This document shows positions 5,648-35,812 of a stretch of 64,000 nucleotides of DNA, in pieces. The notes under the pieces were generated by a model, which was given only the letters and a program-made list of their open reading frames with translations, was not told the origin of the DNA and searched no databases. This DNA is from Gordonia westfalica (lineage in GTDB: Bacteria > Actinomycetota > Actinomycetes > Mycobacteriales > Mycobacteriaceae): the NCBI RefSeq assembly GCF_900105725.1, contig NZ_FNLM01000034.1, positions 1,054,001-1,118,000 of the forward strand. The letters are read 5' to 3'. How positions within the stretch are numbered: the stretch's first letter is position 1; every line of letters begins with the position of its first letter. The position numbers and the translations under genes were made by a program.

Positions 5648-6082
5648 CTACAAGACCGCGTTCAACGCGGCCGAGTTCGCTGCCGAGAAGTTCTCCTCGT
5701 GCTGGGTCTGGTACTCGTTCCATGCGGCCGAATCCCAGATCTCGAGGTGATCGAAGCTACCGAACACCACGCACTCCTTGGACAGTCCCGCGTAGATCCG
5801 ATGGTCGGAGGACAGGCTGATCCTGCCCTGGCCGTCCGGTCGTTGCTCTTCCGAGCCGGCGAAGAACGTTCGCTGAAACGCACGCAGGTCAGGGTCGTTG
5901 CGTGACGCCTCGACGATCTTCGCCGCGATCACATCGAACTCTTCGGTCCGATACACCGACAAGCTGTGGTCTTGGCCTTTGGTGACCACTACCCCTCCTG
6001 CCAATGCATCGCGGAACTTGGCGGGCAACGTGAGTCGCCCTTTGTCGTCCAATTTGGGCGTGTAGGTGCCGACAAATCGCAT
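5648..6082 (-). CDS. mraZ: Transcriptional regulator MraZ
   Basis: Ring-forming DNA-binding protein with two SpoVT/AbrB folds that represses its own dcw operon in several bacteria. From the ATG at 6082 the product is 144 aa and starts [22 protein letters not shown], matching the mycobacterial protein. The best ribosome site (AGGAGG, complement of 6096–6101) is 13 nt from this ATG but only 7 nt from an in-frame GTG at 6088, so translation may begin two codons earlier. The second AbrB repeat ([24 protein letters not shown]) is clear. It heads the dcw cluster; candidate MraZ boxes lie upstream. Confidence 0.95.
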
Positions 6083-6564: not shown

Positions 6565-6966
6565 CTACTCCTGCTCGAACCGACGGTTGAATCGTTCTTC
6601 CATCCGCTCCGACAGCTTGCGCTTGGAGCCCGATGACCCGGACTGCTTCTTGCCTCCCCCGCGCGGCGCGGACGTCGCGGAGTCGGCGAGGTCGTCACCC
6701 CAGAGGGCGAAGAGGCCGGCACCGAACATCACCAGGAAGCCGAGGAGGCTGACGATCGGGAAGCCCCCGATGTCGATCCCTATGATGAGACCGCCGACGA
6801 GCATCACGAGGCCGACGACGAAGACCGCCACCGCCTGCAGGCGACGACGACCACTCGACTTGCCCAGCCGACGACGCTTGACACTGGACGCAAACTTGGG
6901 GTCTTCCGCGTACAGAGCGCTCTCGATCTGTTCGAGCATGCGTTGCTCGTGCTCCGAAAGTGGCAC
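6565..6966 (-). CDS. DUF3040 membrane protein (Rv2169c-like)
   Basis: Conserved actinobacterial membrane protein of unknown function. The GTG start at 6966 gives 133 aa beginning VPLSEHEQRMLEQIESALYA, the family signature; a longer reading to 7008 lacks support. AAGGAGG lies just upstream. A basic stretch (KRRRLGKSSGRRRL) is followed by two hydrophobic segments (about residues 46–68 and 70–88) and a charged C-terminal tail. It stands between the HEPN gene and the dcw cluster, as in mycobacteria, and ends at a strong terminator. Confidence 0.88.
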   Translation of the reverse strand: MPLSEHEQRMLEQIESALYAEDPKFASSVKRRRLGKSSGRRRLQAVAVFVVGLVMLVGGLIIGIDIGGFPIVSLLGFLVMFGAGLFALWGDDLADSATSAPRGGGKKQSGSSGSKRKLSERMEERFNRRFEQE

Positions 6967-7143
6967 CGACCCTCCTTCTCCCTGATCCGCGACGCCGACG
7001 ACGGTCAACCGCGACCGGTGGGGCGTCTGCGCCTTATTCTCCCATGATACGAGGTGAAATCAGCCGCGACCACCATTACTCTCTGTTGCGGAGTCGGATG
7101 CGCATACCGGAACGACAACGGAACGTCGAAAGTGTGTCAGGCC

Positions 7144-7608
7144 TCACGCCGTTCGCCCGATTTGGGGCTCCTCTGTCCCGAATTTGCCTTGCTCGTAAGC
7201 GATGACCAGGGTTTCGACCTGCCGAAGGAAATCGAGGACGAGAAGTCGCATGCCGGCGACGCTGTCGGGGTCGAGTGTTCGGATGATCCCCGACTCGATC
7301 TTCATCCGCACGGACGACAGCGAGGCGAAGCGCGCCGCCAGCGGGGCGAGCTCGGGAGCGACGACGCCGATGCGGGTCCAGGCGTTCGACGTCTTGCGAC
7401 GGGAGGGACCGACCGGCTCGCCTATCGCCAGCGCGGCACCGGCTGCACGAAGTGCGACGAGATAGAACTGACGGAAACGCTCGGCGTCGTCGGAGACCCC
7501 GTCCGCGTTGTCGAGGAGGAGATGGGCGCGCGCAAGCAGATCGCGCGCACGTCCGACCATCACCGGGTCGACGGGGGCGGACCGCCTGGATGTGGGCCGA
7601 CCGGGCAT
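7144..7608 (-). CDS. SAV_6107-type HEPN domain protein, predicted SOS-inducible
   Basis: A 154-aa helical protein resembling the SAV_6107 HEPN family of actinobacteria, whose function is not established. HEPN proteins are often RNases or parts of conflict systems. The ATG at 7608 has an ideal GAGGAGG site; the longer reading to 7794 is excluded because the predicted transcription start lies inside it. Key parts are the helices RARDLLARAHLLLDNA and ERFRQFYLVALRAAGAALA. The usual catalytic R-x4-6-H is not evident in the last helix, so RNase activity is uncertain. A consensus sigma promoter overlapping a perfect LexA box lies about 130 bp upstream. The DUF3040 gene follows after about 177 bp. 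Confidence 0.75.
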   Translation of the reverse strand: MPGRPTSRRSAPVDPVMVGRARDLLARAHLLLDNADGVSDDAERFRQFYLVALRAAGAALAIGEPVGPSRRKTSNAWTRIGVVAPELAPLAARFASLSSVRMKIESGIIRTLDPDSVAGMRLLVLDFLRQVETLVIAYEQGKFGTEEPQIGRTA

Positions 7609-7720
7609 GGCATCCTCCTCACTCGCTGACGACGGCGCCCGGTGGCAGACGCTTCCCTCGTCCGCCACCGGACCGTCATGTCGTCGGGATGAACGCGAAC
7701 AGCTTGCGGAGGCACATTCA

Positions 7721-7736
7721 TCGAACACCCGTTCGA
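7721..7736 (-). promoter_or_regulatory. LexA/SOS box
   Basis: TCGAACACCCGTTCGA is a perfect match to the mycobacterial/actinobacterial SOS operator TCGAAC-N4-GTTCGA. It lies 7 nt downstream of a -10 element on the minus strand, so bound LexA would cover the transcription start of the HEPN gene. Confidence 0.88.
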
Positions 7737-7743
7737 CACGTTC

Positions 7744-7772
7744 AATATAGCTAGCGACGCGCGTCTCTTCAA
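7744..7772 (-). promoter_or_regulatory. Sigma-A type promoter of the HEPN gene
   Basis: On the minus strand TTGAAG (7772–7767), a 17-bp spacer and TATATT (7749–7744) form a near-consensus promoter. Predicted transcription would start around 7737–7738, at the edge of the SOS box, leaving a leader of about 130 nt before the ATG at 7608. Confidence 0.75.
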
Positions 7773-7929: not shown

Positions 7930-8601
7930 TTGACGATCCGCCTGGTGAACCTCAACGGTCAGGACTCTCGCGTGTGGCTGGAGCCCGCGCTCGACGTCTA
8001 CGTGACCGCGATGGGGTACCCCCGCGGGACCGAGGTGCACCGCGCCGCCCTGTGGCGCGAACACATCGCCCGTCCCGGATGGCGTGCGATCGGAGCGGTC
8101 GCCACGCTGCCCCCACACGAGGCGCAGTCGATGCCGACCGTTCGCCGCCGGGTGGGACTGCCCGTGGGTACGGGTCCCGACGACGTCCTCGTGGGAATCG
8201 CCTACGGATACACGGGGGCAACCGGCCAGTGGTGGAATCAGCAACTCCGGCTCGGGTTGCGACAGACCGGACGCTCGCCCGCGGACATCGAGATGATCGC
8301 CCGCGACTACTTCGAGCTGACCGAGCTCCACGTCCACCCGACGGCACAGGGCCACGGCATCGGGCAGTTGCTGCTCGCACGGCTTCTCGCCGACCGGCCC
8401 GAACGCCACGTCCTGTTGTCCACACCGGAGATCCCGGCCGAACGCAACCGGGCGTGGTCGCTCTACCGGCGCATGGGTTTCTCGGATGTCCTCCGTCATT
8501 TCACCTTCACCGGCGACCCTCGGCCGTTCGCCTTCCTGGGCCGTCCGCTGCCCCTGAATCTCCAACCGCCACCCGCCGGTCCCCCACAACCCGGAAGGTA
8601 G
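7930..8601 (+). CDS. GNAT-family N-acetyltransferase (Rv2170-like)
   Basis: Acyl-CoA-dependent N-acetyltransferase fold, 223 aa; its mycobacterial positional counterpart is Rv2170. The acetyl-CoA binding motif A is clear at about residues 136–155 (ELHVHPTAQGHGIGQLLLA), followed by the typical motif B RAWSLYRRMGF. The start is a TTG at 7930 with a weak GGAGAG about 10 nt upstream; no better in-frame start covers the conserved N-terminus. It is divergent from the HEPN gene and is followed after 46 bp by the FAD oxidoreductase. The physiological substrate cannot be told from sequence. Confidence 0.85.
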   Translation: MTIRLVNLNGQDSRVWLEPALDVYVTAMGYPRGTEVHRAALWREHIARPGWRAIGAVATLPPHEAQSMPTVRRRVGLPVGTGPDDVLVGIAYGYTGATGQWWNQQLRLGLRQTGRSPADIEMIARDYFELTELHVHPTAQGHGIGQLLLARLLADRPERHVLLSTPEIPAERNRAWSLYRRMGFSDVLRHFTFTGDPRPFAFLGRPLPLNLQPPPAGPPQPGR

Positions 8602-12279: not shown

Positions 12280-13518
12280 GTGACCTCCGCCTTCCCCACG
12301 CCGACCTCGCTCGATGCGGTCCCGGCGGCCGTCGAGTCCGAATTGCGCAGATTCTTCGACGTCGCGGTGCCGGCCGCGGCCGAGATCGCCCCCGTTGTCG
12401 GCACCGCGGCCGACATGGTCCGGGACTTCGTGCTGCAGGGTGGCAAGCGCATCCGACCGGTCTTCGCCTTCGCCGGCTGGCGGTGCGGGATGACCGAATC
12501 GGGGCGTGCCGACACCGGCGCGGCGTCGACCGTCGGTCGCGAGGCCCGGGACGCGCTGCGGGTGGGCGCGGCCCTCGAACTCGTGCAGGGATGCGCCCTG
12601 ATCCACGACGACATCATCGATCAGTCCGACACCCGGCGCGGTCACCCGACACTGCACCGCGTCTTCCAGGCGCGGCATGCGGCGGCGTCGTGGGCCGGGG
12701 ATGCCGCCGACCACGGGGTGGCTGCGGCGATCCTGGCCGGCGACCTCGCGCTCGCGTGGGCCGACGACCTCGTGCACGATCATCGGCCGGGGGTTTCGAC
12801 AAGCTCAACCAGCGGAGAAACAAGCTCAACCAGCGGACAAACAAGCTCAACCAGCGGAGGAACAAGCTCAACCAGCGGAGGAACAGATTCGATCTCCGAC
12901 TACCGGGCGCTCCCCCCGGCGGTCGGCGCGACCTGGGCGGCGATGCGCACCGAGGTGCTCGGCGGCCAGTTGCTCGACATCGTGAACGAGGCCAGCGGCG
13001 ACGACTCGGCGGCCGCCGCCTATCGCGTGATGGAGTTCAAGACCGCCGCGTACACCGTCGCCCGTCCCCTCGAGCTGGGGGCGCGCCTCGCCGGCGCGTC
13101 GGAGGACCTCGTCGCGACGTTGCGGAAGATCGGACACGACCTCGGCATCGCCTTCCAGTTGCGCGACGACCAGCTCGGCGTCTTCGGGGATCCGGAGCGG
13201 ACCGGCAAGCCGTCGGGCGACGACCTGATCTCCGGAAAGCGCACCGCCCTGCTGGCCACCGCACTACGACGCGCCGATGACTCCGACCCCGCGCTCGGGG
13301 CCCGCTTGCGCTCCTTCATCGGACGCCCTCTCGACGACGACGAGTTGGGCTCCGCGCGAGCACTTCTCGTCGACGTGGGCGCGGTCGCCGAGATGGAGGG
13401 CAAGATCGACGACCTCCTCGGCGCCGCACTCGGTGCACTCGATGCCGCCGACATCGGCGACGACATCCGCGCCGAACTCACCGCGGTCGCCCACCGGGCC
13501 GCGCATCGCGAGGCGTGA
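12280..13518 (+). CDS. idsA2: Trans-polyprenyl (geranylgeranyl-type) diphosphate synthase, IdsA2/GrcC-like
   Basis: Condenses isopentenyl diphosphate with allylic diphosphates to make prenyl chains. The product is 412 aa. The first Asp-rich motif is D110-D-I-I-D114 in LIHDDIIDQSDTRRGHP and the second is RDDQLGVFGD at about residues 295–304; GGKRIRP lies near 54–60. Residues of about 172–205 are a Thr/Ser/Gly repeat encoded by a 21-bp tandem repeat, absent from typical family members and probably an exposed loop. The GTG start follows a leaderless -10. The stop overlaps the mptA start (GTGA), suggesting translational coupling. Confidence 0.9.
   Translation: MTSAFPTPTSLDAVPAAVESELRRFFDVAVPAAAEIAPVVGTAADMVRDFVLQGGKRIRPVFAFAGWRCGMTESGRADTGAASTVGREARDALRVGAALELVQGCALIHDDIIDQSDTRRGHPTLHRVFQARHAAASWAGDAADHGVAAAILAGDLALAWADDLVHDHRPGVSTSSTSGETSSTSGQTSSTSGGTSSTSGGTDSISDYRALPPAVGATWAAMRTEVLGGQLLDIVNEASGDDSAAAAYRVMEFKTAAYTVARPLELGARLAGASEDLVATLRKIGHDLGIAFQLRDDQLGVFGDPERTGKPSGDDLISGKRTALLATALRRADDSDPALGARLRSFIGRPLDDDELGSARALLVDVGAVAEMEGKIDDLLGAALGALDAADIGDDIRAELTAVAHRAAHREA
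12797..12887. repeat. 21-bp in-frame tandem repeat inside idsA2
   Basis: About four copies of a 21-bp unit containing caagctcaaccagcgg. It keeps the frame and adds roughly 30 low-complexity residues to the prenyl synthase. The core actcaaccagcg recurs in the intergenic array at 49992–50310, so this looks like a dispersed repeat that has entered a gene. Confidence 0.85.
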
Positions 13519-33668: not shown

Positions 33669-33933
33669 CGTGTGATCTCCATCTCATCTGGCCGTCCGGG
33701 GCGTTCGAGCCCCGGATCGGGCGGGTCAGGGGAGTGATTTCGCCGCCGTCGGCGACGATCTCTCACTTCGAGGTGGAGACTAGGCGGCACCACCGACAAA
33801 CTCGATCGCACAGTGTTCGACACATGCGTCACACGAGTAACAGTCGACGTCGGAGAACATCTCGCCCTCCCTCCCCCGGCAGAAACAGAACGATCGATCG
33901 GGGTGTCACATCGGCCCTGTCGGTGCATCGAAC

Positions 33934-33946
33934 TAATGTTCGGCCT
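33934..33946 (+). promoter_or_regulatory. Leaderless -10 element of the Rv2191-like gene
   Basis: TAATGT followed by 7 nt and GTG. It supports the GTG at 33947 over the longer open frame that runs back to 33734. Confidence 0.6.
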
Positions 33947-35812
33947 GTGAGGCGCATGGATGGTGGCCGCGCAGCCACCGGACGGGAGACCGAGGGACAG
34001 CTGACCTTCGCCGACCTCGAGGCCGCCGACCAGGCCACCGATGGCGTCCCGACGTCGAACGAGTTCAGCGACCGGGCGCTGTTCGAGACCACCCTCGTGG
34101 TCGTCGACCTCGAGACCACCGGCTCGGACCACTCGGGCGACCGCATCACCGAGATCGGTGCGGTGAAGATCCGGGGCGGCGAGGTGATCGGCGAGTTCGC
34201 CACCCTGGTCGATCCCGGTCGCCCCATCCCGCCGCAGATCGTCACGCTCACCGGGATCACGACGGCGATGGTCACCGACGCCCCCCGCATCGAGTCGGTG
34301 CTGCCCGCATTCATCGAGTTCGCCCGCGGGGCGATCCTGGTCGCCCACAACGCCCGCTTCGACATGGGGTTCCTGCGGCAGAACGCGCTCCGGCTCCACC
34401 TCGACTGGCCGTTCAGCCTGAGCCTGTGCACGGTGACGATGGCCCGGCGCATCCTGTCGCGCGACGAGGCGCCGACGGTCAAACTGAGCGCCCTCGCCGA
34501 CCTCTTCGACGTCTCGGTCCGCCCGACCCACCGGGCGCTCGACGACGCCCGCGCAACCGTCGAGGTGTTCCACCGTCTTCTCGAACGCGTCGGGAACCAG
34601 GGCATCGCGACGGTCGGGGACCTCACCTCTTATCTGCCGCGGACCGATCCGCGTCTGCGCGCCAAACGCCATCTCGCCGACCGCGTCCCGGCCCGCCCGG
34701 GTGTCTATCTCTTCCGCGGTCCGTCGAACGAGGTCCTCTATGTGGGCACGGCCGTCGACCTACGACGCCGCGTCCGTTCCTATTTCTCCGGCAGCGATCC
34801 GCGGCGACGCATCACCGAGATGGTCCTGCTCGCCGAGCGCGTCGACGTCGTCGAGTGTTCCCACGCCCTGGAGGCGGCGGTCCGGGAGTTGCGGCTGCTG
34901 GCCGCGCACGCGCCCGCCTACAACCGCCGTTCGACGCAGCCCCACAAGGGATGGTGGGTCACGCTGACCGAGGAACACTTCCCACGCCTCAAGGTCAGCC
35001 GCACCCCCACCGACGAATCCATCGGCCCGGTGGGCAACCGCAACAACGCGGCGACCGTCGCCGACGTGATCGCCGCGGCCGCCGGGCTGCGCACCTGCGC
35101 CAAACGCCTCGGCGCCACCGGCTATCACTGGTGCCCGACACCCGACGGCACCCGGCAACCCGGCGGATGCCACGCCGCCGCATCGCAACCCCAGGCCGTC
35201 CCGGACTATCTGCCGCACGTCACCGCGGCCCGCCGCCTCATGCGCGGGGAGGCCGACGACCTCCTCGACGCCCTCACCGAGCGCCTCGCCGATCTCTCCG
35301 AGGCGCAGATGTTCGAGACCGCCGCGCGCCACCGCGACCGGCTCGCCCTGACCATCGACGCACTGGCGCGGTGTCAGCGGCTGGCCGCCCTGTGCGCGAT
35401 CGCCGAGATCGTCGTCGCGCGTCCCGACGACGAACGCGGATGGCATTTCGCCGTCGTCCGTCACGGACGGCTCGCCGCAGCGGGACGCGCCCGCCGAGGC
35501 GTCTCCCCCATGCCCGTCGTCGACGCGCTCGTCGCCGCGGCCGAGACGGTCGTCCCCGCACCGGGTCCGCTGCGCGGTGCACCGGCGGAAGAAGTCGCAC
35601 TGATCTACCGGTGGATGACCGAGCCGGGGGCCCGGATCGTGTCCACGACCGACCCGGTGGCACTGCCGGCCGGGTGCGCCGAACGACGCCGCGGCTGGTC
35701 ACAGTCCGCACGGGACGCCCGCTCCGACGCCCGGTCGGCGGTGCACCGGACGCCACGGCCCGCACCACGCTCGCCGGTCCGGGAGCTCGTGGCAACTAGG
35801 CTTGCGCCATGA
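33947..35812 (+). CDS. DEDDh exonuclease fused to a UvrC-like GIY-YIG domain (Rv2191-like)
   Basis: A 621-aa nuclease predicted to act in DNA repair. The N-terminal DnaQ-type exonuclease has VVVDLETTGSDHSGDRITEIGAVK, then HNARFDMGFLRQ and HRALDDARATVEVFHRLL (Exo I–III). From about residue 240 a GIY-YIG nuclease follows (PGVYLFRGPSNEVLYVGTAVDLRRRVRSYF), then UvrC-like Cys-containing and UVR-motif regions. This combination is the Cho-like protein Rv2191. The start is set by a leaderless promoter. Its stop overlaps the next start by 4 nt. Confidence 0.9.
   Translation: MRRMDGGRAATGRETEGQLTFADLEAADQATDGVPTSNEFSDRALFETTLVVVDLETTGSDHSGDRITEIGAVKIRGGEVIGEFATLVDPGRPIPPQIVTLTGITTAMVTDAPRIESVLPAFIEFARGAILVAHNARFDMGFLRQNALRLHLDWPFSLSLCTVTMARRILSRDEAPTVKLSALADLFDVSVRPTHRALDDARATVEVFHRLLERVGNQGIATVGDLTSYLPRTDPRLRAKRHLADRVPARPGVYLFRGPSNEVLYVGTAVDLRRRVRSYFSGSDPRRRITEMVLLAERVDVVECSHALEAAVRELRLLAAHAPAYNRRSTQPHKGWWVTLTEEHFPRLKVSRTPTDESIGPVGNRNNAATVADVIAAAAGLRTCAKRLGATGYHWCPTPDGTRQPGGCHAAASQPQAVPDYLPHVTAARRLMRGEADDLLDALTERLADLSEAQMFETAARHRDRLALTIDALARCQRLAALCAIAEIVVARPDDERGWHFAVVRHGRLAAAGRARRGVSPMPVVDALVAAAETVVPAPGPLRGAPAEEVALIYRWMTEPGARIVSTTDPVALPAGCAERRRGWSQSARDARSDARSAVHRTPRPAPRSPVRELVATRLAP
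35797..35808 (+). promoter_or_regulatory. Leaderless -10 element of the Lrp-like gene
   Basis: TAGGCT ends exactly 6 nt before the ATG at 35809, inside the 3' end of the exonuclease gene. The gene can thus be read from its own leaderless transcript as well as by coupling. Confidence 0.55.

Follow-up and report, generated by a model that had tools for sequence, protein, structure and literature searches.

An SOS-box-bearing gene of the HEPN_SAV_6107 family in Gordonia westfalica and its genomic linkage to translesion polymerase genes in actinobacteria

We report that a gene of the HEPN_SAV_6107 family (PF18726), situated close to the dcw cluster of Gordonia westfalica, is almost certainly under LexA control, as judged from an exact SOS box at its predicted promoter that is kept with its orthologs and lost where the gene is lost. 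In other families of the class, the orthologs frequently lie upstream of putative translesion polymerase genes. We favor the proposal, to which this linkage and a shared type of promoter lend a fair degree of probability, that the HEPN protein has an accessory role in SOS translesion synthesis. Throughout, the window denotes the whole stretch of 64,000 nucleotides that was analyzed, and positions are counted from its first letter.

The HEPN gene and its predicted promoter

The features of the window on which the argument draws are:

5648..6079, minus strand: mraZ, the start of the dcw cluster (profile match)
6565..6978, minus strand: DUF3040/SCO2097-family gene, next downstream of the HEPN gene (profile match)
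7144..7608, minus strand: HEPN_SAV_6107 gene (PF18726), 154 aa (Pfam, AF2 model, PDB comparison, conservation)
7614..7618, minus strand: ribosome-binding site GGAGG, 5' of the ATG at 7608 (sequence)
7721..7736, no strand assigned: exact LexA/SOS box TCGAACACCCGTTCGA (sequence; conserved in relatives)
7744..7749, minus strand: predicted -10 element TATATT, 7 nt 5' of the box (from sequence)
7767..7772, minus strand: predicted -35 element (TTGAAG), separated by 17 bp from the -10 element (from sequence)
7930..8601, plus strand: divergent GNAT gene, rejected as owner of the box on the strength of the loss test described below

The consensus of the actinobacterial SOS box is TCGAACN4GTTCGA. Its only exact match in the 64 kb is at 7721-7736 (mean of 0.01 in 100 dinucleotide shuffles), with 112 bp between the end of the box and the HEPN start codon, and it adjoins the predicted promoter. 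An earlier, sequence-only reading of this DNA had described an exact LexA operator, TATATT 7 nt before it and TTGAAG a further 17 bp off, all on the strand of the HEPN gene, and had placed that gene near mraZ and the dcw cluster; each of these observations was reproduced, with the DUF3040/SCO2097-family gene and then mraZ lying on the same side. The ATG at 7608 is preceded by GAGGAGGAT, which supplies a good ribosome-binding site. The predicted transcription start lies within reach of the box, which overlaps it, so that bound LexA would block this sigma-A-type promoter; DNA damage would free the promoter through RecA-stimulated cleavage of LexA.

There are nine exact SOS boxes in the whole genome. 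The 16-mer of the window box, spacer included, recurs at four more places in three small contigs, where near-identical stretches (L005, G000:C15; L006, G000:C27; L011, G000:C35) carry TCGAACACCCGTTCGA and look like one repeated element; a gene near these boxes resembles, by eye, a phage terminase small subunit. Identity of the spacer therefore means little, and it is conservation across genera that counts for the box. Among the remaining exact boxes, one (L009, G000:C34:2590478) is near a gene for an AlkB-like 2OG-Fe(II) oxygenase (PF13532), one (L007) is upstream of a DUF222 gene, another (L010) is similar by eye, with a second DUF222-type gene, and yet another is near an ORF that by eye is NAD-epimerase-like. 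Elsewhere in the window, a one-mismatch box, TCGAACTAATGTTCGG, at 33928-33943 (plus strand) ends 12 nt before the likely ATG at 33956 of an ORF coding for a Cho/UvrC-like protein with RNase_T and GIY-YIG domains, a probable second SOS gene of the window. A GGPP-synthase-like gene of the window bears a low-complexity in-frame insert at about 12700-12960, with repeats of the SSTSGET/AQPAEKQ type.

The divergent intergenic location of the box, along with the recurrence of the same 16-mer in a repeated element, invites the alternative that it serves the GNAT gene, or that the match arose by chance or from a repeat, with the HEPN gene not being SOS-regulated at all. The comparisons that follow bear directly on this alternative.

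The SOS box is kept with the HEPN gene and lost with it

We detected PF18726 in 186 of the 201 genomes of the window's GTDB family, with one match in each. The in-family set comprised 71 loci, namely the window, the 30 best-scoring and 40 chosen loci, the last selected to include every one of the 14 genus-mates and the majority of genera. In the 700 bp that precede the HEPN domain, the best site was exact in 37 of these loci, had one mismatch in 18 and two in 13, and was wanting in three. The operator that the sequence-only reading proposed to look for before homologs in other Mycobacteriales is thus present, at up to two mismatches, in 68 of the 71 loci, two of which (L054 and L063) have two-mismatch sites inside the coding region that look spurious; in L030 the first-listed two-mismatch site is not orthologous, and the orthologous site is also present. 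As a control, 262 other 700-bp windows of the in-family loci yielded no exact, four one-mismatch and 25 two-mismatch sites (29/262), and 60 permuted palindromes, searched in-family at up to one mismatch, matched a mean of 0.13 loci and at the most five. We scanned 21 further loci from weakly matching in-family genomes. The Corynebacterium-like loci (g3) have a site at up to two mismatches in 13 of 15, a count made without control windows, and no convincing box was found upstream of the HEPN gene in the loci of groups g4 (3/3), g5 (2/2) and g8 (2/2), one g5 locus having a two-mismatch site at -586.

All 47 named Corynebacterium loci have a site with up to three mismatches within 300 bp (nine with one, 18 with two and 20 with three), against 5/47 in a control stretch. 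In these 47 loci the HEPN gene is placed, as in the window, between the DUF3040 gene and a divergent GNAT gene; MraZ and RsmH then follow in 45, the contigs of the other two being too short. This arrangement connects the family to published data. In Corynebacterium glutamicum, whose genome served as a control and contains PF18726, the locus tags cg2378 and cg2380 denote mraZ and a putative membrane protein, and cg2381 occupies by locus-tag order the same place as the HEPN gene of the 47 loci. Given this gene order and the presence of PF18726, its position makes it very likely that cg2381 encodes the HEPN protein. In the parts of PMC5055667 drawn on here, cg2381 is a "conserved hypothetical" gene and a member of the LexA regulon according to Jochmann et al. 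2009, and is strongly induced by ciprofloxacin (M-value 3.86) alongside the division suppressor gene divS; those parts make no connection of cg2381 with HEPN, PafBC or a polymerase. SOS control of the HEPN gene has therefore probably been observed already, with no connection drawn to the family, to the PafBC element discussed below or to the polymerase linkage. Accordingly, the suggestion that a damage-induced function was not described for this family holds insofar as we found no description of the family in such terms, and fails insofar as cg2381 was already placed in the LexA regulon of C. glutamicum.

A natural loss test is provided by group g29 (probably Mycobacterium). All 14 sampled genomes lack the HEPN gene, and the DUF3040 and GNAT genes are direct neighbors, 216-334 bp apart as measured between tblastn ends; a fifteenth HEPN-less genome (G098), in which GNAT gave no match, did not enter the test. 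No box with up to one mismatch lies between DUF3040 and GNAT in any of the 14, the gaps showing a two-mismatch site in one genome, three-mismatch sites in two and no site in 11. Because these HEPN-less genomes have no box there, we conclude that the box belongs to the HEPN gene and not to its neighbors. As a promoter element of the GNAT gene it is rejected by this test.

In the class as a whole, 197 of the 296 genomes examined have PF18726. From these we assembled 80 loci of 30 other families, picked for spread and not randomly; loci from the same family do not count as independent of each other. A box with up to one mismatch lies within 1.7 kb upstream of the HEPN gene in 75 of the 80 (64 exact), whereas downstream control windows of equal length gave 0/77 at this threshold and 11/77 at two mismatches. 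Thus, the box stays with the HEPN gene where the upstream genes differ, and it is absent where the GNAT gene is intact and the HEPN gene next to it has gone; the control windows, permutations and shuffles exclude chance; and cg2381 is induced by ciprofloxacin. These observations leave the attribution of the box to the GNAT gene, to chance or to a repeat highly improbable, and LexA control of the HEPN gene is strongly supported by both the conservation of the box and what has been published on the gene of the same position in C. glutamicum.

A PafBC-type element joined to the SOS box

The RecA-independent P1/PafBC promoter has the consensus tTGTCRgtg-8nt-TannnT, as given in the part of PMC5656591 drawn on here. 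At up to one mismatch, TTGTCRGTG-N8-TANNNT is present upstream of the HEPN gene in 44 of the 71 in-family loci; the 262 other windows have none at this threshold and five at two mismatches. P1 and the box are 7 nt apart in 23 of these 44 loci, the spacing that TATATT and the box have in the window, 8 nt in four and 16-18 nt in 13, the element being unpaired with the listed box in the other four. Many relatives thus combine the PafBC motif with the SOS box in their HEPN promoters, unlike the recA gene of M. smegmatis, which has P1 and the LexA-controlled P2 as separate promoters (PMC11804915). The HEPN promoter of the window differs from the PafBC promoters in that the best P1 match upstream of the gene has four mismatches, TTGAAG standing in its place, and we do not assign it to the PafBC regulon. 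In other families, 32 of 80 loci have P1, at up to two mismatches, no more than 20 nt 5' of the box (controls 0/77). All five loci of f3 (probably Streptomyces; L187, L257-L260) are without an SOS box at up to one mismatch and keep PafBC-type elements of the TTGTCAGTG or CTGTCAGTG type before the HEPN gene; it looks as if only the RecA-independent input had been kept in that family.

A composite pattern of P1, 7 nt and the box, allowed one mismatch, was searched in the 201 genomes and gave 80 matches in 79 of them, the reversed pattern giving none. Seventy-two of the matches belong to the HEPN gene and six to imuA'-imuB, with neither seen at two. Reading 30 of the loci gave 23 with the HEPN gene, six with imuA'-imuB (ImuA' being recognized from matches to two seeds) and one with neither; among the remaining 50, all except one (G056:C17, on a contig without a HEPN gene) share the strand of the HEPN gene and precede its domain by 143-385 bp. 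Five of the six imuA'-imuB cases are in the window's genus, one of them in the window's own genome, where the composite promoter (G000:C34:2036374-2036418) has one mismatch. An SOS box thus precedes imuA'-imuB in the same genome as the HEPN gene of the window, and the mycobacterial ImuA'-ImuB-DnaE2 mutasome and the DnaE2-[ImuB-C] modules have the same SOS or PafBC+SOS type of promoter as the HEPN gene.

The HEPN protein

The ORF at 7144-7608 (minus strand) scores 82.8 bits with PF18726 against a cut-off of 27.2, upholding its earlier identification as a SAV_6107-type HEPN gene. The AF2 model of its product (pLDDT 88.5) is a predicted five-helix HEPN bundle, and comparison with PDB structures ranks HEPN structures at the top, the closest folds including the HEPN domain of sacsin and nucleotidyltransferase-associated domains; a PDB sequence search gave weak matches only (2hsb_A, E 0.044). 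Membership in the HEPN_SAV_6107 family hence rests on both the profile score and the fold.

The sequence-only reading saw in the gene a possible effector of RNA cleavage or growth arrest. So stated, a protein induced in the SOS response would cleave RNA or block division while DNA is repaired, a proposal with which the confirmed HEPN fold, the toxic nature of MNT-linked HEPN proteins (PMC3710099), the strong induction of cg2381 together with divS, and the position beside mraZ are all compatible. However, the Rx4-6H RNase motif is entered as "No" for the HEPN_SAV_6107 family in PMC3710099, and in none of our sets (0/36, 0/68 and 0/80 sequences) does such a motif have its R at the positions of window residues 95-106, the helix-3/4 junction; strings of this form occur at non-canonical places in 18/36 and 38/68 sequences. 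The conserved motif at the end of helix 3 that marks catalytic HEPN RNases is thus missing from a protein which otherwise has their fold in common, as well as that of the MNT-associated toxins, and the five proteins scanned among the window neighbors include no MNT partner. An RNase toxin with the canonical site was accordingly rejected for every set examined.

A different configuration emerged outside the window's family. In the other-family loci (L187-L266) an R44-x4-H49 motif in helix 2 is conserved, with R in 79 and H in 78 of 80, and could represent an alternative active site; catalysis outside the window's family is possible for this reason. Residue 49 is Tyr in the window protein and in 68 of the 71 in-family loci, and going by these alignments the change from His to Tyr is family-wide in the window's GTDB family. 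Alignments A1 and A3 were rich in the window's family and Pseudonocardia, and H49 appears in the wider alignment. In the window's family the helical bundle is probably non-catalytic. Together with the single HEPN match per genome of the in-family search and the polymerase genes that lie downstream in 53 of the 80 other-family loci (below), these features render a damage-induced arrest effector unlikely.

The C-termini of the family also vary. An ssrA-like (A/V/S/T)A ending is found in 62/62 Corynebacterium-type and 42/71 other in-family proteins, and in 3/36 of the HEPN proteins encoded beside dnaE. The corresponding C-terminal codons of the window gene are at 7144-7152.

Linkage to polymerase genes

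In the 80 other-family loci, the genes downstream of the HEPN gene on the same strand include dnaE in 42, dinB in 22 and imuA'-imuB in six, at least one of these being present in 53. The other 27 show no polymerase gene in the 0.3-4.5 kb read downstream, some of these stretches being under 1.5 kb. The layouts are DUF6504-HEPN-DnaE (30 loci, e.g. in Angustibacter-like genomes), HEPN-DnaE (six), HEPN-ImuA'-ImuB-DnaE2 (six, in the Frankia-like f71 and in f55 of the window's order), HEPN-(MTase)-DinB-DUF3040 (11), HEPN-MTase-DUF3040 (eight), HEPN-DUF3040 (two) and others (17), with more than one layout in each of the families f67, f71 and f79. An ATGA or GTGA string at the HEPN stop marks 12 of the 36 HEPN-DnaE junctions and would be compatible with translational coupling. 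In the examples checked, ImuA' was recognized by NF058630 (179.6 and 178.2 bits against a cut-off of 65), ImuB and DinB by their IMS domains, DnaE by PHP/DNA_pol3_alpha and DUF6504 by PF20114.

The type of DnaE was assessed in 22 genomes having dnaE beside the HEPN gene. In 3/3 ImuA'-type loci it scores above the cut-off for error-prone polymerases (1481-1552 bits against 939). The 19 other HEPN-linked DnaE proteins score below this cut-off and near the score of their genome's other DnaE, a second one being encoded elsewhere in 19/19 of these genomes; owing to these scores, we only infer that they are DnaE2-like, an assignment that the SOS box supports. Upstream of the HEPN gene, 33 of the 80 loci (L196, L198-L204 and others) carry a DUF6504 gene in the same orientation. 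Comparison of 33 DUF6504 with seven ImuB sequences by hmmsearch and hhalign returned nothing significant, and our identification of DUF6504 with the standalone ImuB-C of PMC12926913 is a guess. The parts of PMC12926913 drawn on here, a 2026 survey, describe actinobacterial DnaE2-[ImuB-C] modules, and the word "hepn" is absent from its text; in 30 of the 80 loci the HEPN gene is flanked by DUF6504 and a dnaE2-like gene, and in six it is the gene upstream of imuA'-imuB-dnaE2. In open-licence PMC papers, we found no mention of DUF6504, no title on HEPN_SAV_6107 in a search for HEPN with LexA and the SOS response, and no "hepn" among the matches listed for dnaE2, translesion, mutasome or ImuB.

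The HEPN gene of the window is not adjacent to a polymerase gene. In the 11 loci of the corresponding layout, DinB lies between HEPN and DUF3040, and the proximity to the dcw cluster in the window may be a remnant of the HEPN-(MTase)-DinB-DUF3040 order from which dinB has gone. None of the 80 other-family stretches shows mraZ since they end too early, and the ancestral order is accordingly a reconstruction as far as mraZ is concerned. The link to division arrest that the sequence-only reading drew from the dcw cluster and mraZ is weakened by these relatives, as they place dinB (intervening in 11/80) or the dnaE and imuA'-imuB-dnaE2 sets (partners in 42/80) at the HEPN gene.

One could also envisage a damage-induced regulator that binds nucleotides or RNA, sensing dNTP or ppGpp or binding mRNA, for which the linkage reflects shared timing alone. 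The closest folds, including sacsin HEPN and nucleotidyltransferase-associated domains, fit such a function, and catalytically inactive HEPN domains have been proposed to bind nucleic acid (PMC3710099). Against this stands the association with three different polymerase gene sets, in more than one layout within each of f67, f71 and f79, and we regard a regulator of this kind as a minor prospect. The linkage can itself stem by inheritance from one ancestral arrangement.

Conclusions

We posit that the HEPN protein, once its promoter is freed, would assist error-prone synthesis by DnaE2 with ImuA'-ImuB, by a DnaE2-like second DnaE or by DinB, for example as an adaptor that binds the polymerase, its partners, or nucleotide or ssDNA at stalled forks. 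Co-transcription with the linked genes, a role in lesion bypass and the contact made are read from gene order and promoters; linkage and a common promoter type do not establish contact or phenotype, and this is one of three main weak points of the proposed accessory role. A second is that the protein would not be essential to the mutasome, given that g29 lacks it and at least one g29 genome (G197, L108) carries imuA'-imuB yet has no HEPN gene. The third is the R-x4-H that other families retain in helix 2. More speculatively, and with considerable doubt on our part, HEPN_SAV_6107 might be an unrecognized core subunit of actinobacterial mutasomes, one small adaptor common to the DnaE2, ImuA'-ImuB-DnaE2 and DinB systems, with a single promoter reading both PafBC activation and LexA release; in Mycobacteriales the protein would afterwards be removed via an Ala degron of the ssrA-like kind at its C terminus, comparable to the handling of Pol V by UmuD.

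Our findings give a specific, testable role to a widespread actinobacterial family without a known function. The absence of the HEPN gene from Mycobacterium-like genomes would explain why studies of DNA damage in mycobacteria have missed it, and the survey of DnaE2 modules (PMC12926913) does not name the HEPN gene of the 30 DUF6504-HEPN-dnaE2-like loci. The composite promoter would offer a clear example of one start site at which both damage signals, PafBC and LexA, are read. If the protein is indeed a polymerase partner, a HEPN domain would have been turned from an RNA toxin or substrate binder into a part of the machinery of damage-induced mutagenesis, and it would be relevant to the supply of mutations in Frankia, Gordonia, Corynebacterium and their relatives.
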